Below the pieces are notes generated by a model. That model did not search any database. It had not been told where the DNA came from and saw only the letters and a program-made list of their open reading frames with translations. This document shows positions 16,676 through 33,038 of a DNA stretch of 33,253 nt, one piece after another. Location: positions 65,285 through 98,537 of the forward strand of contig NZ_JADWYU010000138.1 in assembly GCF_016786325.1 (NCBI RefSeq), given 5' to 3'. The position numbers and the translations under genes are program-made. Every line of letters starts with the position of its first letter. Positions within the stretch are counted from its first letter, which is position 1. Source of the DNA: Frankia nepalensis (lineage in GTDB: Bacteria; Actinomycetota; Actinomycetes; Frankiales; Frankiaceae).

Positions 16676-16702
16676 TCATACAAGATCACAAATCTTGTAT
16701 GA
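16676..16702. promoter_or_regulatory. TetR operator candidate, site 1 (divergent promoter region)
   Basis: A perfect 11-bp inverted repeat, TCATACAAGAT / ATCTTGTATGA, around the 5-base centre CACAA. It lies between the start codons of the PF10118 gene (16650) and the TetR gene (16815), closer to the former. Its outer half-sites, CATACA-N13-TGTATG (16677-16701), recur upstream of the amidohydrolase at 17568-17592. Confidence 0.8.
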
Positions 16703-20410: not shown

Positions 20411-20442
20411 GCCCGCGCACCGGCCCGGGCCGGTGCGCGGGC
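20411..20442. terminator. 32-bp perfect palindrome between convergent genes
   Basis: Positions 20411-20442 form a perfect palindrome built from GCCCGCGCACCGGCCC and its complement. It ends at the stop codon of the minus-strand anti-sigma gene and follows the plus-strand hydrolase. A strong stem (up to about 14 bp with a small loop) can form in either transcript, as expected for a bidirectional terminator. Confidence 0.8.
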
Positions 20443-25007: not shown

Positions 25008-26063
25008 TCAGCCGGAGGCCGCGCCCTCGGGACTCGTGTCGGGGCCTTGACCCGGAGTGGGCTCGAGCGGGCTCGCCGGACCGGGGAGCCGAGGCACGGC
25101 GGCGAGCAGCGTCCGCGTGTAGGGATGGGCCGGGTTTGCCAGGACCTGGGCGGTGGGGCCCTGCTCGACGAACTCGCCGGCGCGCATCACCGCGACCTGG
25201 TCGCACAGCCGCGCCACCACGCCCAGGTCGTGGGACACGAGGATCAGACTCAGCTGACTGGCGATGGTCAGCTCGGCCAGCAGGTCGAGGATCTGCGCCC
25301 GTACGGAGACGTCCAGGGCGCTGACCGGCTCGTCGCCGACCAGCACGCGCGGGCGGGGCGCGAGCGCCCGGGCGATCGCGATCCGTTGCCGCTGGCCGCC
25401 GGAGAACTCGTGCGGGTAGCGGCCGCGTACCTCCGTGGGGAGGTCGACCGCGCGCAGGACCTCGTCCACCCGCGCGTCGTGGTCCTCCGCGACCCGCAGG
25501 CACTCCAGCGGCTCGGCGACGATCGCGCCGACCGTCAGCCGCGGGTTCAGCGAGGCGACCGGGTCCTGGAGGACCACCTGGACGTCGCGGCGCAGCCAGC
25601 GCAGGTCGCGTGGCCGGCCGGCGCGGACCAGCCGGCCGCGGTAGCGCACCGTGCCGGCGTCGGGCCGGTCGAGCCCGAGCAGCAGCCGCACCAGCGTCGA
25701 CTTGCCGGAGCCGGACTCACCGACGATCCCGAGGCTCGCGCCGGCGGGCAGCGTCAGCGTGACGCCACGCACGGCCTGCCGGGACGCGTGCCGGGAGGCC
25801 CGGCCGGCCCGCTTCCCGTCGCCCGGCTGGCCGCCGGAACCCGCGTCCGGATGACCCGGCCCGCGCCGGGCGGCGCGCGGCAGCGGGAACGACCGTGACA
25901 GCCCGGTGACCTCGAACGCCGCCTCCGCCGCCGCGCGCGCGGAACCAGGGTCCGACCGACCGGCCGCGTCCACCTCCCGGCGCGTCGACGCCGCCGCCGC
26001 GCGGGGAGCCGGGCGGGTACGAGCGATCTCGGCGGGCCGGTCCGGCTGGGTGGAGTGGGTCAT
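25008..26063 (-). CDS. Dpp/Opp-type ABC transporter ATP-binding protein (F-type)
   Basis: A 351-residue ATPase of the oligopeptide/nickel ABC group. Walker A is GESGSGKST, the Q-loop lies in VQVVLQDP, the signature is FSGGQRQRIAIARAL, Walker B is VLVGDEPVSALD, and the switch His is in LILVSHDLGV. The C-terminal oligopeptide-transporter extension (HPYTRTLLAAVP) is present. The N-terminal 90 residues carry two Arg/Pro/Gly-rich inserts not found in typical DppF. It is the last gene of the five-gene operon; its ATG overlaps the previous stop codon by four bases. Confidence 0.94.
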   Translation of the reverse strand: MTHSTQPDRPAEIARTRPAPRAAAASTRREVDAAGRSDPGSARAAAEAAFEVTGLSRSFPLPRAARRGPGHPDAGSGGQPGDGKRAGRASRHASRQAVRGVTLTLPAGASLGIVGESGSGKSTLVRLLLGLDRPDAGTVRYRGRLVRAGRPRDLRWLRRDVQVVLQDPVASLNPRLTVGAIVAEPLECLRVAEDHDARVDEVLRAVDLPTEVRGRYPHEFSGGQRQRIAIARALAPRPRVLVGDEPVSALDVSVRAQILDLLAELTIASQLSLILVSHDLGVVARLCDQVAVMRAGEFVEQGPTAQVLANPAHPYTRTLLAAVPRLPGPASPLEPTPGQGPDTSPEGAASG

Positions 26064-26914
26064 GGGCGCGCCGCCTCGGGAGTGAACGGGCTGGTCACGT
26101 CGCGACCGGGCGCCGGCGGCCAGGCCGTGGCGTGGGCGGCGGCGAGCAGCGCCTGGGCGTACGGGTGACGGGGGTGGCGCAGCACGTCGCCCGTGGCGCC
26201 GGACTCCACCAGCCGGCCCGCCCGCATCACCTCGACGCGCTGGGTGACGGTCGCGACGACCGCCAGGTCGTGGGTGATGAACAGCAGGGCCGCGCCGGTC
26301 TCGTCGACCAGCCGGGTCAGCAGCGCGAGGATCTCCGCCTGCACGGTGACGTCGAGGGCGGTCGTCGGTTCGTCGGCGAGGATCAGCGACGGCTGGCAGG
26401 CGAGCGCGACCGCGAGCCCGACCCGTTGGCGCTGCCCGCCGGAGAGCTGGTGCGGGTAGGCGCGGACCAGCCGCTCCGGGTCGGGCAGCCCGACCCGCTC
26501 GGCCAGCTCGACGGCGGCCGCGTCGGCGGCCCGCCGGGACAGCCCACGGTGGATGCGCAGCGGCTCGCCGATCTGCCGGCCGACCCGCATCAGCGGATTC
26601 AGCGCCGTCAGCGGCTCCTGGAAGACCATGGCGACCTCGTCGCCCCGGATCTTCGACATCTCCCGGTCCGTGCGGCCGAGAAGCTCGTGGCCGGCGAGCC
26701 GGATGCTTCCGCTGACCGTAGCCGCGTCGGGCAGCAGCCCGAGGACCGCGAGCGCGGTCAGCGACTTGCCCGAGCCGGACTCGCCGATCAGCCCTACCCG
26801 CTCGCCCGCGTCCACGTGGAAACCGACGCCGTCGACGACCGGTGCCCCACCGATCCGTACCCGCAGGTCGCTGACCTCCAGCAGCGGACCACCGGCGCTC
26901 GTGGATTCACTCAT
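26060..26914 (-). CDS. Dpp/Opp-type ABC transporter ATP-binding protein (D-type)
   Basis: A 284-residue ATPase forming a pair with the F-type subunit. Walker A is GESGSGKS, Q-loop MVFQEP, signature [15 protein letters not shown], Walker [13 protein letters not shown], switch His in [10 protein letters not shown], and the C-terminal [10 protein letters not shown] is conserved. The start is ambiguous: ATG at 26914 (MSESTS) or three codons earlier at 26923. The first is preferred because it keeps only a short overlap with the upstream permease gene. Neither has a good ribosome binding site, consistent with translational coupling. Confidence 0.93.
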
Positions 26915-28028
26915 CGAACACATCCAGCGGGCCGAGCCTCTTCGCGCCGAGCGCCGTGGAATCGAGCGTCGTGGAATCGAGCGTCTTCGGGCCCCGGGTC
27001 TCAGAAACGAACGCGTCGGCGAGCGTCACGGGAGCGGGCGTCGCCGGGCCGGGCGGTACGGGGTCGGCCACGGCCAGCTCGGGGTCGACCGGGCCGGAGC
27101 CCGCCGGCGGTCCGCCAGGTGTCGCCGCGGCCAGCGTCGCCGGGCCGGGCGTGGCGCGGGCCGGGTAGCGCAGGCGGGGGTCGGCGGCCTCGCGCAGGCC
27201 GTCGCCGAGCAGGTTGAAACCGAGGACGGTCAGCACGACGGCGAGGCCGGGCCAGAGCAGTACCAGCGGGCGCAGCGTCAGGTAGGGCTGCAGCTCGTGC
27301 AGGCTGCGCCCCCACGACGGCCGCGGCGACGGGGTGCCGAGCCCCAGGTAGGACAGCGCCGCCTCGGTCAGCACGACGATCCCGGCCATCAGCGACAGCT
27401 GGATGTACAGCGTCGGGGTGATGTTCGGCAGCAGGTGGCGGCGGATGATCCGCCACGTGCCGGCGCCGGCGGCACGGGCGGCGAGCACGTAGTCGCTGGC
27501 CAGCACCCGGCGGATCTCGCCGCGGGTGACCCGGGCGACCTGCACGCCGAGGCCGAGCCCGAGTGCCACCAGGATCGTCCACGCGCGGCCGGGATACACG
27601 GCCGCCAGCACCAGCGCGATCAGCAGCGGCGGGAACGCGATGAGGACGTCGAGGAGGTGGGCCACGCCCTCGCCGACCGGCCTCGAGGTCACGGTCGCGA
27701 GCAGCGCGAGCGCCAGCCCGACCACGGCGGCGAGCGCCGTCGCGCCGACGGCGACGAACAGCGTGACCTGGGCGCCGGCGAGCAGCTGGCTGAACAGGTC
27801 GCGGCCGAGCCGGTCCGCGCCCAGCCAGTGCCGCCCCGACATGGGCGCCCAGGAGTCCTCGGTGCTGACCTTCGTCGGGTCGTACGGCGTCCACACCAGC
27901 GACACCAGCGCCGCGACGACGATCAGGCTCGACAGCGCGGCGCCGAGCCGGCCGGACCGCGTCCGCAGCACCGCCCGCGCCGTCGTCACCGCGCCCGCCC
28001 CGAACGGGCGCGTGCCAGGCCGGCTCAT
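26907..28028 (-). CDS. Dpp/Opp-type ABC transporter permease (C-type) with long C-terminal tail
   Basis: A 373-residue inner-membrane permease (BPD_transp_1, PF00528) with an N-terminal OppC-like helix (about 26-46) and five further helices. The EAA loop, which contacts the ATPase, is around DYVLAARAAGAGTWRIIRRHLLPN. After the core ends near residue 298 (DPRLRYP) there is an unusual tail of about 75 residues rich in Pro, Ala and Thr, with a DNA-level 15-bp duplication giving DSTTLDSTAL. Typical DppC proteins stop soon after DPRLR. The ATG at 28028 overlaps the stop of the upstream permease gene (ATGA). Confidence 0.92.
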   Translation of the reverse strand: MSRPGTRPFGAGAVTTARAVLRTRSGRLGAALSSLIVVAALVSLVWTPYDPTKVSTEDSWAPMSGRHWLGADRLGRDLFSQLLAGAQVTLFVAVGATALAAVVGLALALLATVTSRPVGEGVAHLLDVLIAFPPLLIALVLAAVYPGRAWTILVALGLGLGVQVARVTRGEIRRVLASDYVLAARAAGAGTWRIIRRHLLPNITPTLYIQLSLMAGIVVLTEAALSYLGLGTPSPRPSWGRSLHELQPYLTLRPLVLLWPGLAVVLTVLGFNLLGDGLREAADPRLRYPARATPGPATLAAATPGGPPAGSGPVDPELAVADPVPPGPATPAPVTLADAFVSETRGPKTLDSTTLDSTALGAKRLGPLDVFDE

Positions 28029-28975
28029 CGCGCCTCCCGCAGCCGGGGGTCGAGCAGCCGGTGCCCCAGGTCGACCAGGAAGCCGATGACGAGCACCGCG
28101 ACCGTCACGAGCAGGACCGTGCCCTGCACCTTCACCAGGTCGCGGTTGCCGACGTCGGCGATGAGCATCTGGCCGAGGCCCGGCAGCGTGAACACGTTCT
28201 CGATCACCACCGCGCCCAGCAGCAGGCTCGCGAACTCCAGCCCCAGCACGGACAGGACGGGCAGGGCCGCGTTGCGCGCCCCGTGACGCAGCAGCGCCCG
28301 GCCCTCCGTCAGCCCCTTCGCCCGGGCCGTGCGGATGTAGTCGGCGTGCAGCACCTCCAGCGTCGCCGAGCGGGCGAACCGCAGCAGCACGGCGCCCTGC
28401 AGCAGTGCCAGGGTGACCACCGGCAGCACCAGCGAGCGGACGGCGGCGGCCGGGTCGGCCCAGCCGTCGCGCGGGAAGCCGCCCGCGGGCAGCAGCCGCC
28501 ACTGGACGGCGACCAGCGTCGTGAGCATCAGGCCGACCCAGAAGCTCGGCACCGCGATCCCCAGCTGGCCGGCGACGGACAGCGCGTGCCCGGCCGGGCT
28601 CCGGTGCCGGGAGCCGGCGAGGATCCCCAGCGGCACGCCGACCAGGACGGCGAGCAGGCTCGCGCCGGCGACCAGCGGCAGGGTGACGGTGAGCTTCTCG
28701 CCGAGCTGGCCGGACACCGAGACGCCGTTGAGCGCCGACGTGCCGAAGTCGCCCCGCAGCACGCCTCCCAGCCAGCTGAGGTACTGCTCGGCCAACGGCC
28801 GGTCGACGCCGAGCTCGTGGCGGATCCGCTCGACCTGCTCCGGCGTCGCCCGCGTCCCCGCGATCACCTGCGCGACGTCGCCGGGCAGCAGCCGCAGCAG
28901 CAGGAAGACGAGCACGCTCGCCACCAGCAGCGACAGCGCCAGCAGCCCGAACCGGCGCAGCAGGATCAGCGCCAT
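28025..28975 (-). CDS. Dpp/Opp-type ABC transporter permease (B-type)
   Basis: A 316-residue permease with six predicted helices, beginning with RRFGLLALSLLVASVLVFLLLRLLPGD as in DppB/OppB. The cytoplasmic EAA motif is around DYIRTARAKGLTEGRALLRHGARNA, and the protein ends in the usual DPRLR. The ATG at 28975 has GAGGAG 7 bases upstream. It follows the substrate-binding protein gene by 249 bases; that gap holds a 15-bp inverted repeat. It forms the channel with the C-type permease. Confidence 0.94.
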   Translation of the reverse strand: MALILLRRFGLLALSLLVASVLVFLLLRLLPGDVAQVIAGTRATPEQVERIRHELGVDRPLAEQYLSWLGGVLRGDFGTSALNGVSVSGQLGEKLTVTLPLVAGASLLAVLVGVPLGILAGSRHRSPAGHALSVAGQLGIAVPSFWVGLMLTTLVAVQWRLLPAGGFPRDGWADPAAAVRSLVLPVVTLALLQGAVLLRFARSATLEVLHADYIRTARAKGLTEGRALLRHGARNAALPVLSVLGLEFASLLLGAVVIENVFTLPGLGQMLIADVGNRDLVKVQGTVLLVTVAVLVIGFLVDLGHRLLDPRLREAR

Positions 28976-29142
28976 CGCGGGCTCCTCGGCCCGGCCCGGT
29001 GTCCGGCGCCGCCGAGCGGCTCGTCGCCGACCGACTTGTCGCCGGCCAGCCCGTGGCCCGCGGCGGTCGGCGCCCGCCGAGCGCCGGCCGGGCACGACGG
29101 CCCGGTCGGCGCCCGCCGATTCTTGAGCGGTCTGGTCACGAC

Positions 29143-29227
29143 TGAACCTTTTCCGTCGCCGGTTCGCTGTCGAGATCTCCAGGCACTCCAGGACGGCCAC
29201 CGAGTCCGGTGAGACGGAAAAGGTTCA
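29143..29227 (-). promoter_or_regulatory. 15-bp inverted repeat at the binding-protein/permease boundary
   Basis: TGAACCTTTTCCGTC (29143-29157) and GACGGAAAAGGTTCA (29213-29227) are perfect complements separated by 55 bases. The second arm contains the stop codon of the substrate-binding protein gene. Within the loop is CACCGGACTCGGTG, itself a small hairpin. A stem here could stop or pause transcription, or protect the upstream mRNA, so that more binding protein than permease is made. Confidence 0.65.
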
Positions 29228-30784
29228 CAGGGTGACGACGATCTTCGACGCGTCGAAGCGCGACGAGGTGTTGTTCTCCGGGTAGCCGCTGATGCCGGTC
29301 CTCGCGACCTGGATGGACTCGCCGAGGAGCAGCCAGTCGCTGACCGCCTTCTCGGAGACGAGCCGGGCGAGCGCCTTGAAGTTGGTGTCGCGCTCGGCGT
29401 CGGTCGTCGCGGTCACCGCCGCCTGGTAGAGCCGCTGCGCCTCGGGGTCGTTGTAGCCCCAGTAGTAGTTCGTCTTCGCGTAGTTGCCGAGGTCGCGCGG
29501 TTCGGCGTGGTCGACCAGGCTGAGGTCGTAGTCGTGGTTCGTGAAGACGTCGGTCAGCCAGGTCGGGAACTCGACCGAGCGGATCGTGACGTTGACCCCG
29601 ATCTCCTCGAGCTGCGAGACGATGTACTCGGAGATGGTGCTCGGGTAGATGTTCGGGACTGTCAGCGTCAGGTCCAGCCCGGAGGCAAAACCGGCGTCGG
29701 CGAGCAGCTTCTTCGCGTTCTCCGGGTTGTACTTGTCGATGCTGGTCAGGTCCTCGTACCAGGGGTCGAGCGGCGGGACGTCGCTGCCGATCCGGATGCC
29801 CTGGCCAAAGGTCTTGAGGAGCCCGTCCTTGTCGATGCCCTGCCGGATCGCGTGGCGGACCCGCTCGTCGGACAGCGGCGCCTTGGCGTTGTTGAACCCG
29901 AGCGTGAACTTGTCGGTCGTCGAGCCCTTGACGATCGTGAAGTTCGGGTCGCCCTCGTAGGCGTCGAGCAGGTCGCTGTCCAGGATCGCGCCGATGTCGA
30001 CCTGGCCCGTCTTCACCGCGTTGTTCTGCGCGTTCACGTCGGTGATGTAGCGGAAGACGACCTCGGCGACGCCGGCCTGGTCGCCCCAGTAGCTGTCGTT
30101 ACGGACCAGCGTGATGCTGTCGCCGTGCTTCCAGGAGTCGAACGTGAACGGCCCGGTGCCGACCGCGGTCTCGGCGAGGTCCGTCGCGCCGTCCTTGAGC
30201 ACGGCGCCGGCCGGGCCGGTCAGCCAGAAGGTGAAGTTCGCGTCGCGGCTCTTCAGCTTCAGCACGACGGTCTTCGGGTCGGGTGAGGTGACCGACTCGA
30301 GCGAGGCGAAGTCGCCGGCGTTCGGGTTCGTCGAGCCGGGAGCGATGACCTTGGAGAGCGACGCGACGACGTCCGAGGCCGTCAGCGGGGTGCCGTCGTG
30401 GAACGTGACCCCGTCGCGCAGCGTGAAGGTGTAGGTCAGCCCGTCGTCGGAGAGCTTGTACTCGCTGGCGAGCTTCGGGGTGATGTTCCCCTCGTCGTCG
30501 CGCTCCAGCAGTCCCTGGTAGACGTTGTTGAGCAGCACCTGCGCGATGGCGACGCCGGAGCCCGTGGTGATGTCGAGCGTGCTCGGCTCGAGGACCAGGC
30601 CGACGACGACCGTGGCGTTCGGGTCGGCCGTTCCGCCGCCGACGGCGCCGGCCGGGTCGTCGCTCGCCGCGTCACCCCCGCAGGCGGCGAGGACCAGCCC
30701 GGCGGCCGCCGCGACGGCGGTCAGCGCCAGCCTTCCTCGCCGGCGGCGTGCTCCCAGCCTCAGCGTGGGTGGTCGGACCTTCAT
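29225..30784 (-). CDS. ABC transporter substrate-binding lipoprotein (SBP family 5)
   Basis: A 519-residue extracytoplasmic solute-binding protein of family 5 (peptide/nickel/opine class). It has a lipoprotein signal: Arg-rich N-region, hydrophobic core ALTAVAAAAGLVLAAC and a lipobox LAAC ahead of GG, with the modified Cys near residue 35. Typical segments are EPSTLDITTGSG, LRDGVTFHDGTPLTASDVV and VRHAIRQGIDKDGLL. Family members bind peptides, glutathione, opines, nickel chelates or sugars, so the ligand is not given by homology. Context (a cysteine leader upstream and ssuD head-to-head) suggests an organosulfur ligand. The ATG at 30784 has AAGGAG 10 bases upstream. It is the first structural gene of the operon. 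Confidence 0.94.
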   Translation of the reverse strand: MKVRPPTLRLGARRRRGRLALTAVAAAAGLVLAACGGDAASDDPAGAVGGGTADPNATVVVGLVLEPSTLDITTGSGVAIAQVLLNNVYQGLLERDDEGNITPKLASEYKLSDDGLTYTFTLRDGVTFHDGTPLTASDVVASLSKVIAPGSTNPNAGDFASLESVTSPDPKTVVLKLKSRDANFTFWLTGPAGAVLKDGATDLAETAVGTGPFTFDSWKHGDSITLVRNDSYWGDQAGVAEVVFRYITDVNAQNNAVKTGQVDIGAILDSDLLDAYEGDPNFTIVKGSTTDKFTLGFNNAKAPLSDERVRHAIRQGIDKDGLLKTFGQGIRIGSDVPPLDPWYEDLTSIDKYNPENAKKLLADAGFASGLDLTLTVPNIYPSTISEYIVSQLEEIGVNVTIRSVEFPTWLTDVFTNHDYDLSLVDHAEPRDLGNYAKTNYYWGYNDPEAQRLYQAAVTATTDAERDTNFKALARLVSEKAVSDWLLLGESIQVARTGISGYPENNTSSRFDASKIVVTL

Positions 30785-31221
30785 GGTCGTGGTGCTCCTT
30801 GGACTCGTCAGGAAGCCGGAAGTGGGCGTTGCCGGCTGGCTGGGGCTGGGACTGTGGAACGGGCGCGTCGGCGAGCCGGTCGGCGAGGCCGCCGTGCTCA
30901 ACCGGCCGGCGCGGAATGACCGTCGCCGCGAGTGGTTCGTCGGGAGTGGTTCGTCAGGAGTGGGCCGACGGGAACGGGTCGATGGGAAAGGGCTGACGGT
31001 GGAAATGAACACGTTCCGGCGCCATCGAAAAAAGGGCATGACAAAACCCGTCGTTCTCGGCGGCCCCCGCTCGGTGTCGGCGTCAGGGAATACCGGGGCG
31101 GAGGCCGCGCCGCCGAACGGGTGACCCGAAGTCAGGGAGCGGCGGCGTCCTGGGCCGCGGCCTTTCGGGGTGACCGCCTGGCGCGCCGCCACAGGCCGCC
31201 CCGGGGATCGGAGGGCGACGT
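30785..31221. other. Long 5' untranslated stretch between leader hairpin and the binding-protein gene
   Basis: About 440 bases without a supportable gene. On the plus strand there is a degenerate 14-base repeat around 30930-30975 (GAGTGGTTCGTCGG variants). An A-run at 31029-31034 gives a T-run in the minus-strand transcript, but no strong stem was seen directly before it. The region is most likely the untranslated part of the transporter mRNA and may contain further attenuation or a second promoter. Confidence 0.5.
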
Positions 31222-31245
31222 ACGCGGCCCCGGACGGGGCCGCGT
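31222..31245 (-). terminator. Attenuator-like perfect hairpin at the leader-peptide stop codon
   Basis: ACGCGGCCCC (31222-31231) pairs perfectly with GGGGCCGCGT (31236-31245) across a 4-base loop. The stem begins at the last base of the leader stop codon, only six bases past its Cys codon. A ribosome paused at that Cys codon would cover the 5' arm and stop the hairpin from forming. No T-run follows, so termination may be Rho-dependent or the stem may only pause polymerase. Confidence 0.72.
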
Positions 31246-31373
31246 CAGCTACAGAGGCGGCTGGCGACCCTCATCAGATCCACCGCGCGCCGGCTGGTCA
31301 GCGGGACCGTGACCAGCGCCGATCCCCAGCCGGACGGCCGGGCGTGGCGGCGGGAGACAGGCGTCGGCTGCAT
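31245..31373 (-). CDS. Cysteine-containing leader peptide (attenuation uORF)
   Basis: A 42-residue open frame starting at ATG 31373 and ending in RRAVDLMRVASRLCS. The C-terminal pattern LTxRRxVDLxRVxSxLC matches the short putative leader peptides that precede sulfur-related operons in actinobacteria; I recognise this from the motif. The Cys codon TGT is the second-last sense codon, and a perfect GC hairpin starts at the stop codon. The frame is on the same strand as, and upstream of, the ABC transporter operon whose first gene begins 460 bases later. Ribosome stalling at Cys when cysteinyl-tRNA is scarce would relieve attenuation. The 5' leader appears very short, with no clear ribosome binding site. 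The start codon is less certain than the C-terminal half. Confidence 0.75.
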   Translation of the reverse strand: MQPTPVSRRHARPSGWGSALVTVPLTSRRAVDLMRVASRLCS

Positions 31374-31394
31374 GGCGCGCAGCGTACCCCACAT

Positions 31395-31423
31395 TCCCTA
31401 CTGACGTAGTTTCTTTAATGCAA
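31395..31423 (-). promoter_or_regulatory. Candidate promoter of the leader/transporter transcript
   Basis: On the minus strand TTGCAT (31423-31418) is followed after 17 bases by TAGGGA (31400-31395). The region is clearly AT-richer than its surroundings. Transcription would start about 15 bases before the leader ATG. The -10 match is only partial. Confidence 0.4.
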
Positions 31424-31844
31424 CCTGGCTGTAGCGATCCGCGTTCGCGGGCGCGTCGGGTGACGGTATGCGCGCGTTACCTGGGCACGGTCATTTTCGA
31501 GTAACAGTTGCGCAGCATCAATGCAGCGATTGCCGCGGCGGTTGACGTGAGTTGTGTGCCGGTGCGACGCTCGTCGAGCTGGGCCGCCGACCGCTGGTCG
31601 CGGCCGCTCCGGAAACTCGGCCGGTGCCCCGTGGTGCTTTCCGCGTACCCGGGAAAGCGCGGGGAGCCGACCGTCCGGGCTTTGCCGCTCCGTCGGCGCC
31701 GGTCACGAGATCCGGTTACCAGGTCCATTCACGAGCCATACCTGTTCCCGCCGCCAGCCTGCCCCGCCGGCGCGCCCCGCCCGCCAGGCGAACCGTCGGG
31801 CGGGCGCGCGGCCGGCCGCCCGAGACGAAGGAGAACCCCGCGCC
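31424..31844. other. Intergenic region upstream of ssuD
   Basis: About 420 bases with no supportable gene. It should hold the ssuD promoter. TTGACG at 31542 is a possible -35 but no matching -10 was found at the right spacing. A 25-codon frame at 31468-31545 encodes two Cys near its end but lacks the leader motif. Confidence 0.45.
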
Positions 31845-33038
31845 GTGCCCCTGCACCTGCACTGGTACCTGCCGACCAACGGCGACGACCGGGGCATCGT
31901 CGGTTCGGGTGACGGGGAGCCCCGCCACGGCGCCGAGGGCGCGGTCCGGTACTCGCGGTTTCGCGCGCCGACCGTCGGCTACCTCGGGCAGATCGCCCGC
32001 GCCGCCGAGCAACTCGGCTACGAGGCGGTGCTCACCCCGACCGGGCTGTGGTGCGAGGACGCCTGGATCGTCACCGCGGCGCTGTCCCAGGTCACCACCC
32101 GGCTGCGGTTCCTCGTCGCGTTCCGGCCGGGACTGATCTCCCCGACGCTGGCCGCCCATCAGGCGGCCACGTTCCAGCGGGTGTCCGACGGCCGGCTGGT
32201 GCTCAACATCGTCACCGGCGGCGACTCGGCCGAGCAGCGCCGGCTCGGTGACCATCTCGACCACGACCAGCGCTACGCCCGCGCGGACGAGTTCCTGGCG
32301 GTGCTGCGCGGCGTCGCCGGCGCCCGGCCGGCCTTCGACTTCACCGGCGCGCACTACGACGTCCGGGACGCGAGCGTCGACGTCGCCCCCTGGGGACCGC
32401 CGCCGGTCTTCTTCGGTGGCGCGAGCCCCGCGGCCGAGCGGGTCGCCGCCCGGCACGCCGACGTCTACCTGGCCTGGGGGGAGACCCCGGCCCAGATCGC
32501 CGAGCGGCTCGGCCGGATGCGCGAGCTCGCGGCCGCGGCCGGGCGAGAACGGGACCTGAGCTTCGGCATCCGCTTCCACGTGATCAGCAGGGACACCGCC
32601 GCCGAGGCGTGGGCCGAGGCCGAGCGGCTGCTCGACGGCCTCGACGACGCCCGGATCGCCGCCCACCAGGCGGTCTTCGCCGCCAGCGAGTCGGTGGGGC
32701 AGCGGCGGATGGCCGCGCTGCACGGCGGTGACCGCTCCCGGCTCGAGGTCCACCCGAACGTCTGGGCCGGCTACGGGCTGGTCCGCGGCGGCGGCGGCAC
32801 CGCGATCGTCGGCAGCCACGAGCAGGTCGCCGAGCGGATCGAGGAGTACCACGCGCTCGGCCTGGACCACTTCATCCTCTCCGGCCAGCCGCACCTGGAG
32901 GAGGCCTACCACCTGGCCGAGGGCGCGGCGGTCCTGCTGCGCGCCCGGGGCCTGCTGGCGCCGCCCGCGCCCGCGCCCGCGGCCCTGCCCGGCCCGCCGG
33001 CGCCACCGATCCCATCTGTCGCCGCGCCGGCCGGGTGA
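31845..33038 (+). CDS. ssuD: FMNH2-dependent alkanesulfonate monooxygenase
   Basis: A 397-residue luciferase-like (LLM) TIM-barrel enzyme that aligns closely to E. coli SsuD along its length. It oxidises alkanesulfonates with FMNH2 and oxygen to an aldehyde and sulfite, releasing sulfur for cysteine synthesis. SsuD positions are conserved: C70 in WCEDAW (E. coli Cys54), H245 in IRFHVISR (His228) and R314 in GLVRGGGGTA (Arg297). Other matching blocks are NIVTGGDSAEQ, VFFGGAS and SGQPHLEEAY. The GTG at 31845 has AAGGAG 11 bases upstream; residues from LHLHWYLPTNG fit the family N-terminus. A Pro/Ala tail of about 25 residues ends the protein. An FMN reductase (SsuE) gene is not in the window. 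The gene is head-to-head with the leader-controlled ABC operon. Confidence 0.95.
   Translation: MPLHLHWYLPTNGDDRGIVGSGDGEPRHGAEGAVRYSRFRAPTVGYLGQIARAAEQLGYEAVLTPTGLWCEDAWIVTAALSQVTTRLRFLVAFRPGLISPTLAAHQAATFQRVSDGRLVLNIVTGGDSAEQRRLGDHLDHDQRYARADEFLAVLRGVAGARPAFDFTGAHYDVRDASVDVAPWGPPPVFFGGASPAAERVAARHADVYLAWGETPAQIAERLGRMRELAAAAGRERDLSFGIRFHVISRDTAAEAWAEAERLLDGLDDARIAAHQAVFAASESVGQRRMAALHGGDRSRLEVHPNVWAGYGLVRGGGGTAIVGSHEQVAERIEEYHALGLDHFILSGQPHLEEAYHLAEGAAVLLRARGLLAPPAPAPAALPGPPAPPIPSVAAPAG

Follow-up and report, generated by a model that had tools for sequence, protein, structure and literature searches.

A short upstream open reading frame (uORF) with a leaderless-type start probably senses cysteine supply for a five-gene importer operon of Frankia nepalensis, and the importer is probably a sulfur-supply system. 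We analysed a 33,253-nt stretch of DNA (the window; positions 65285-98537 of contig C99 in genome G000, which comprises 10.7 Mb in 398 contigs). Judged from sequence, the probability that the uORF (31373-31245) acts in this way on the operon (30784-25008) and that the importer serves sulfur supply is roughly 0.6. The reading builds on the frame and its conservation at the peptide level, a leaderless signature, a UGU codon that does not vary across the leaders read and the finding that every importer ortholog located has a cysteine leader upstream. The features concerned are listed in Table 1.

Table 1. Positions of the importer genes, the divergent gene and the leader elements within the window.
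Feature	Coordinates	Strand	Remarks
Substrate-binding protein, SBP_bac_5 (Dpp/Opp/Gsi/Nik type)	29225..30784	-	
Permease, BPD_transp_1 type	28025..29200	-	extent as called; real start probably lies further in
Second permease	26907..28502	-	ORF as called; domain in later part
ATPase, Opp/DppD-like	26060..26923	-	
ATPase, Opp/DppF-like	25008..26063	-	
AAGGAG, Shine-Dalgarno-like	30795..30800	-	ahead of the binding-protein ATG
LLM flavin monooxygenase (luciferase-like), alkanesulfonate-monooxygenase-like	31845..33038	+	divergent to the importer; GTG start
Leader uORF, 42 codons plus TGA	31245..31373	-	MQPTPVSRRHARPSGWGSALVTVPLTSRRAVDLMRVASRLCS, then stop; ATG at 31373, TGA at 31247-31245
TACGCT, -10-like box	31381..31386	-	7 nt ahead of the leader ATG; leaderless-type start
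Conserved codons 25-42 of the leader	31248..31301	-	LTSRRAVDLMRVASRLCS; 7 silent, 0 replacement differences to G006
Single Cys codon TGT	31251..31253	-	motif position D+9; proposed sensor codon
Perfect 10-bp hairpin, loop of 4	31222..31245	-	first base is the last base (A) of the stop codon
C-rich, G-poor stretch in the leader-to-gene gap	30945..30994	-	24 C and 8 G in 50 nt

Profile matches identified the five minus-strand genes as an SBP_bac_5 substrate-binding protein, two BPD_transp_1 permeases and two ATPases with an oligo_HPY tail, the composition of a Dpp/Opp-type ABC importer; the oligo_HPY match in the first ATPase lay below its cut-off. None of the importer proteins reached the cut-off of a substrate-specific equivalog among the matches listed. 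The nearest solved relatives of the binding protein were mixed (an unnamed binding protein, 5u4o; AapF, 7kz8; AgaA, 6hlx; YliB, 1uqw), and the assignment of a substrate from its sequence was therefore dropped. Its closest named records came from Frankia canadensis, other Frankia strains and Protofrankia coriariae. Outside the Frankiaceae, the best relatives among the matches listed (L227-L298) were largely from Alphaproteobacteria and about 34-39% identical, which may hint at an old horizontal transfer of the importer.

The closest comparison was provided by genome G006, the sole ortholog region among the eight genomes of the genus, whose binding protein is 80% identical. In G000, G006 and F. 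canadensis the divergent neighbour of the importer is an SsuD-like gene; an SsuD homolog lies about 9 kb off on the other side in G012, G042 and G043, and about 15 kb in G048. Compared with TIGR03565 as a translation from 31842, one codon ahead of the GTG, the monooxygenase of the window scored 421 bits, below the SsuD cut-off of 518. Between the divergent genes, the block ATGCAACCTGGCTGTAGCGATC (window 31418-31439) is largely kept in G006 and its surroundings less so; it may be an operator or belong to the promoter of the SsuD-like gene. Elsewhere in the window, perfect inverted repeats at 16676-16702 (AT-rich, 11 bp) and 20411-20442 (GC-rich, 14 bp) are possibly terminators or an operator, and the contig end (33190-33253), with long C and G runs and little else, looks like poor sequence. 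No Rfam family matched the window at gathering thresholds.

The 42-codon frame ending RRAVDLMRVASRLCS that the original prediction had described is indeed present. An alternative in-frame ATG upstream, at 31394, would extend it to 49 codons; the start at 31373 was favored because it follows a TACGCT box with a 7-nt spacing that is conserved in G006. The same spacing was found in F. canadensis, with TATGCT as the box. The leader carries the leaderless signature, TANNNT 5-8 nt ahead of ATG or GTG, and its start is predicted to be leaderless. Of the promoter-like stretch proposed upstream, this box is what stood, since a simple sigma-70 scan of 30700-31850 gave no promoter-like site. Against the NCBIfam model NF042934 ("putative leader peptide") the leader scored 25.7 bits (E 6.2e-6), short of the cut-off of 27, and we regard it as a frame that would work like a member of this family, not as a curated member. 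The NF042934 core R-x-[HA]-[VI]-D-L-x-R-V with a Cys at D+9, as defined from the leaders read in this analysis, is present in it. The own genome gave ten NF042934 matches (E 7e-8 to 0.0012), which stand clear of the next match at 0.25.

Conservation between the window and G006 is concentrated in the C-terminal 18 codons (Table 1); codons 1-24 differ by four silent and nine replacement changes. When seven changes were placed at random, with all base changes equally likely, all 18 residues were kept in 5 of 200000 trials. The C-terminal part thus looks translated and selected for its peptide, with the front half free to vary. G006 retains the TACGCT box, the ATG 7 nt past it and, at the other end, the final 18 residues with the stop, and the flanking DNA is less conserved: the frame is kept where its flanks are not, the opposite of a frame lost amid preserved surroundings. 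The comparison with G006 and the gap in E values within the own genome confirm the leader frame as real, well beyond chance.

Orthologs of the importer, defined by a binding-protein match at E <= 1e-80, were found in 11 of the 35 Frankiaceae genomes searched. With an NF042934-like motif search alone, G000 and G006 were the only two of the first six to show a leader, and none of the eight named records did. The existence of orthologs without a leader, as this suggested, was overturned by a shuffle-controlled scan for any leaderless cysteine uORF (a frame of 6-70 codons starting 5-9 nt past TANNNT, with a Cys in the last nine residues, within 1.5 kb upstream). A cysteine uORF with a leaderless-type start and a UGU Cys codon near its end lay upstream of the ortholog in 11/11 genomes; 66 of 2200 dinucleotide shuffles (3%) and 1 of 11 reverse strands passed the same scan. 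The gap between leader and gene was 156-488 nt, with about 460 nt in the window. Eight Frankia and Protofrankia records among the 80 relatives listed agreed, each having a cysteine leader upstream, although at least five of them are the same contigs as genomes already counted and are not independent.

Three kinds of leader occur before the 11 orthologs: the window type in G000 and G006, a remnant in F. canadensis, and an unrelated peptide in the other eight. The F. canadensis remnant (G041, L219/L299) has 11 codons, MQPPSAGRRCS followed by a stop, with the same start and the same TGT-AGC-stop end but an in-frame gap between them; a second, longer frame that begins upstream ends at the same point. 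It has lost the RRAVDL-RV segment, so either the motif would be dispensable or this leader is decaying. The eight unrelated leaders share the peptide M(G/R)TG...ILDxFWxSRRAHHFDQ(I/V)C (FDQ hereafter) with a GTG start and several silently varied codons, and the first cysteine is TGT in all eight. Because a cysteine leader lies upstream of all 11 Frankiaceae orthologs found, the predicted assignment of the importer to sulfur supply appears well supported. That part of the original prediction, which had placed the whole Dpp-like importer under cysteine-responsive attenuation, also agrees with the alkanesulfonate-monooxygenase-like neighbour and with sulfur genes behind some sibling leaders; the part that did not hold is the hairpin as attenuator.

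Two FDQ peptides matched no model of NCBIfam 20.0, even at E 10. At E <= 0.1, a profile (A2) built from five FDQ peptides gave 21 matches in 14 of the 35 Frankiaceae genomes; in a sample of 296 genomes from the class, 17 had matches at E <= 0.001. Seven loci without the pattern FW..R..[HD].FD..C were dropped (L335, L336, L337, L343, L344, L351 and L353). Leaders with the pattern occur in 11/35 Frankiaceae genomes and in 15/296 of the class sample, eight of the 15 being Frankiaceae. Among the downstream genes examined are those of luciferase-like monooxygenases (L332, L338, L339), winged-helix proteins (L341, L347, L350, L352), a citrate synthase with another ORF before it (L333), a more distant MarR protein (L334) and, at L345, a cupin resembling cysteine dioxygenase followed by a rhodanese-like protein, both recognised by eye. 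Sulfur links are plausible for some but not all of these genes.

The sensor cysteine was encoded by UGU in 172 of the 172 distinct leaders read that have this residue, across both leader types. We read 90 Frankiaceae leaders of the NF042934 type (83 distinct), comprising the ten of the own genome, the G006 ortholog and 79 further ones among the matches listed, together with 68 leaders (all distinct) of 87 matches from other Actinomycetes. The D+9 codon was TGT in 82 of the 83 distinct Frankiaceae leaders, the exception (L142) having CGC and no Cys there, and in 68/68 of the others; the equivalent FDQ position was TGT in 22/22 distinct leaders. The FDQ pattern demands a cysteine and not its codon, and the leaders were found at the protein level, so the search carried no bias to TGT. 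Other Cys codons in the same leaders were mostly TGC (TGC:TGT 46:12 in Frankiaceae, 85:15 in the others, 8:6 in FDQ leaders), as were those of 16 genes of the window's genome (29 TGC, 4 TGT). G+C was at least 60% at 64 of the 68 non-Frankiaceae loci and 55-58% at the remaining four. Most of the remaining motif codons vary silently; the Ser at D+6 is AGC in 77/79 Frankiaceae leaders and in 26/33 elsewhere.

The constancy of UGU at this position, set against mostly UGC elsewhere, points to a dedicated sensor codon, and we infer slow wobble reading of UGU as the reason for its use. A wider reading is tentative, at somewhat under even odds: actinobacterial cysteine leaders would use one dedicated sensor codon, UGU fixed after a peptide motif and never UGC, and wobble reading, perhaps with sulfur-dependent modification of tRNA-Cys, would tune the pause. 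The preceding Ser would be AGC so that serine shortage is not mimicked. At least two unrelated peptides (R-x-x-V-D-L-x-R-V-x-S-x-x-C and FWxxRRxHxFDxxC) would have converged on this arrangement, and orthologous importers would swap them.

The other nine leaders of the genome head varied genes. The clearest sulfur links are those of C55 (a ThiS-like protein, then a cysteine synthase above the cysKM cut-off), one of the two C33 leaders (followed by a permease that resembles SsuC but scores below that cut-off, and later by an SsuD homolog) and C392 (an ORF that looks like an integral membrane protein, and a rhodanese-like protein; both were recognised by eye from translations). C221 precedes an ABC permease with a TcyN/EhuA-like ATPase, C264 a second SBP_bac_5 importer, and C343 a nitrite/sulfite reductase-like protein, matched best in NCBIfam by nitrite reductases at scores short of their cut-offs. 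The first gene is without evident sulfur link in three of the ten: a sugar-type binding protein of a Peripla_BP_4 ABC importer at C37 (21804-21860, locus L024), a ROK protein at C40, and a winged-helix protein followed by a flavin reductase at the other C33 leader. The C37 leader might indicate that a sulfur-bearing sugar is taken up. Behind cysteine leaders of both classes, in several genomes, stand winged-helix proteins with a Trans_reg_C domain (L030:2393-2956, L341, L347, L350, L352), which may be unrecognised sulfur regulators.

The tenth leader is that of the window, and its position before a Dpp-type importer recurs. At least 15 pairs of an NF042934-type leader and a same-strand SBP_bac_5 gene, including the window's, were found at distances of 181-467 nt; they were chosen by eye among the matches listed, and the count is a lower bound. 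The at least 14 pairs besides the window's have distances of 181-464 nt and are spread over 12 Frankiaceae genomes, the own genome included. Two peptides recur before SBP_bac_5 genes, LT[SAT]RRHIDLLRV[SAT]SAxC and SRRHIDLQRVTS[SC]LC.

The original prediction had also noted a perfect stem starting at the stop codon just past the Cys codon, and this stem exists, 5 nt beyond the TGT. When the 589-nt leader-to-gene region was dinucleotide-shuffled, 22 of 1000 trials gave a perfect stem of at least 10 bp with a loop of 3-8, and five places in the 33-kb window have one, so that the hairpin by itself is mildly unusual. Folded as 45 nt, the sequence at the stop gave -24.8 against -16.9 (sd 2.6) for shuffles. 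When the hairpin was sought upstream of the orthologous transporter in G006, it was absent, the fold at the same place being -13.0 against -13.7. For a survey of structure, 127 of 158 leaders were retained after thinning to <55% identity over 60 nt past the stop, and 45-nt windows were compared with shuffles. In the 65 Frankiaceae leaders, stop-codon windows folded better than shuffles by 2.16 ± 0.41 kcal/mol, the largest excess of the offsets tried; in the 62 others the excess at the stop was 0.88 ± 0.40 kcal/mol and the largest lay 60 nt upstream (1.67 ± 0.37). Structure at the stop is thus a modest average trend of the Frankiaceae set and not a conserved element of the window leader. A conserved downstream pairing partner for the TGT segment was rejected as well: the signal was weak (-0.89 ± 0.19) for the segment starting 9 nt before the TGT, and offsets -42 and +6 were as large.

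An intrinsic attenuator formed by the hairpin and blocked by a ribosome paused at the TGT is therefore quite improbable. Its stem lies within reach of the paused ribosome and the Frankiaceae leaders have the average structure excess just described, but the closest ortholog lacks the hairpin, which rules it out as a conserved attenuator, and structure differs from leader to leader. No intrinsic-terminator-like site with a T-run was found in 30700-31850, and no U-run stands behind the hairpin, as a classical terminator attenuator would have.

In the reading we favor, translation would begin at the AUG that forms the 5' end of the transcript and proceed through the conserved RRAVDLMRVASRL segment. 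A shortage of Cys-tRNA would make the ribosome pause with UGU in its A site, and this pause would switch the importer on. We infer that this switch is mainly transcriptional: RNA polymerase would stop early, probably in a Rho-dependent manner, in the leader-to-gene gap after the ribosome has come off at the stop codon, but would read through while a ribosome is paused. The importer would supply sulfur from a sulfur-bearing solute, used with the neighbouring SsuD-like monooxygenase. Leaderless starts were in frame in 61/156 leaders (19/88 Frankiaceae, 42/68 others), as against 3/156 and 2/156 for the other two frames. The skew of C over G in the first 50 nt from the stop was 0.145 ± 0.017 and 0.212 ± 0.018 in the two leader sets, compared with -0.006 and -0.025 at 200-100 nt upstream of it, a rise that would fit, in a reading we hold loosely, the loading of Rho once a ribosome has departed. 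Within the window, C:G is 24:19 and 20:20 in the two 50-nt bins nearest the stop on its downstream side, and stronger bins come later; the C-rich stretch in Table 1 is a possible Rho loading region and falls in the part missing from the shorter G006 gap. Because the skew of the window is weak at first and this stretch is missing in G006, it is the average over leaders that carries the Rho step. Further points against the favored reading are the score below the NF042934 cut-off, the segment lost in F. canadensis, the small share of Frankiaceae leaders with the leaderless signature (19/88) and the three sibling leaders whose first gene has no evident sulfur link.

Translational attenuation of the Mycobacterium smegmatis type is an unlikely alternative to such premature termination. 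The leader RNA would fold onto the Shine-Dalgarno sequence of the first gene, which would be opened by a ribosome stalled on the Cys codon, as Canestrari and colleagues reportedly described for the polycysteine leaders of that species. With the ribosome held at the TGT, the computed accessibility of the Shine-Dalgarno sequence was unaltered in the window (0.32 to 0.32), where unmasking thus has no computed support. It rose by at least 0.05 in only 2/11 orthologs (G043, 0.18 to 0.35; G021, 0.59 to 0.64) and was lowered in others, in a calculation in which the start and Shine-Dalgarno sites of relatives were picked automatically and the folding of long RNA is weak evidence. The length of the gap (156-488 nt) also argues against unmasking. 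On its side, translational control is reported for mycobacterial polycysteine leaders in two citing papers (PMC9031893, PMC13236596). Transcriptional control with premature termination is favored because the skew rises at the stop and the accessibility is unchanged in the window.

The leader could also be a true arrest peptide, with R-x-[HA]-[VI]-D-L-x-R in the exit tunnel stalling the ribosome on cysteine or a related thiol instead of uncharged tRNA. Conservation at the peptide level, free synonymous change at most positions, and a D and an R placed 9 and 13 residues ahead of the sensor codon are as such a peptide would have them. We nevertheless consider it distinctly unlikely, given that the leaders read encode the sensor residue, a Cys, by one fixed codon and that the F. 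canadensis remnant and the FDQ class are without the segment. It is hardly credible that the frame has decayed or fallen out of use and that the importer escapes cysteine control: the score below the NF042934 cut-off would fit, but codons 25-42 are under purifying selection and a leader precedes all 11 orthologs found.

If cysteine sensing by these leaders holds, a set of "peptide" importers of Frankia, which are nitrogen-fixing plant partners, is placed in sulfur supply, which makes sulfur compounds the place to look for their substrates. The FDQ peptides, of which the two tested match no NCBIfam 20.0 model, add a second class to the cysteine leaders. The UGU rule would narrow cysteine sensing by ribosomes to a single base, UGU versus UGC, with the peptide unchanged. 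The literature searched, in which coverage of subscription papers was small and the negative is accordingly weak, gave no report of the UGU rule or of an FDQ leader. The window leader is a variant of known actinobacterial cysteine leaders. Three points appear to be new and were not seen in that literature: the pairing of such leaders with Dpp-type importers, which recurs in Frankiaceae; the FDQ leaders, which take the place of the window type before orthologous importers; and the UGU rule.

Among known systems, the nearest is the NF042934 cis_reg_atten family, listed alongside the cysteine-rich leaders NF042933 (Ms5788A) and NF042936 (Ms4527A). It shares the core R-x-[HA]-[VI]-D-L-x-R-V-x-S-x-x-C near the C-terminus and the position at the head of operons; the window leader differs in its score (25.7 of 27 bits), its 42 codons with an unconserved front half, its one Cys, the Dpp-type importer and the 460-nt gap. 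The leaderless polycysteine uORFs of M. smegmatis are reported to be cysteine-responsive (Canestrari et al. 2020, as cited in PMC9031893 and PMC13236596) and have in common with the window leader a leaderless start, Cys codons near the stop and, as we read the system of the window, sulfur operons. The window leader has a single Cys codon instead of a run, a long gap and no computed effect of a stall on the Shine-Dalgarno sequence. Mycobacterial cysteine leaders were also found by ribosome profiling (PMC4633059).

Cysteine leaders in Actinobacteria were predicted as early as 2005, including one before cbs in Bifidobacterium longum (Seliverstov et al. 2005, PMC1262725). As described there, they likewise have no conserved terminator and Rho-dependent control is weakly predicted; they differ in having runs of Cys codons and in heading cys and cbs operons, not importers. 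The Rhodobacterales uORFC-8-2 before cysS is again a short uORF with cysteine codons ahead of a cysteine-related gene, but the published account (PMC8632094) gives it tandem Cys codons and an intrinsic terminator, where the window leader has one UGU and no U-run. UGC is dominant in these cysS leaders, which shows that cysteine leaders do not use UGU in general. In B. subtilis sinR, a serine-codon sensor, synonymous codon choice likewise decides ribosome slowing under amino-acid limitation: UCN and not AGC or AGU slows ribosomes under serine starvation (PMC3862929). That system concerns serine and lies within a protein-coding gene, and it is relevant here through the AGC at D+6 of the Frankiaceae leaders.
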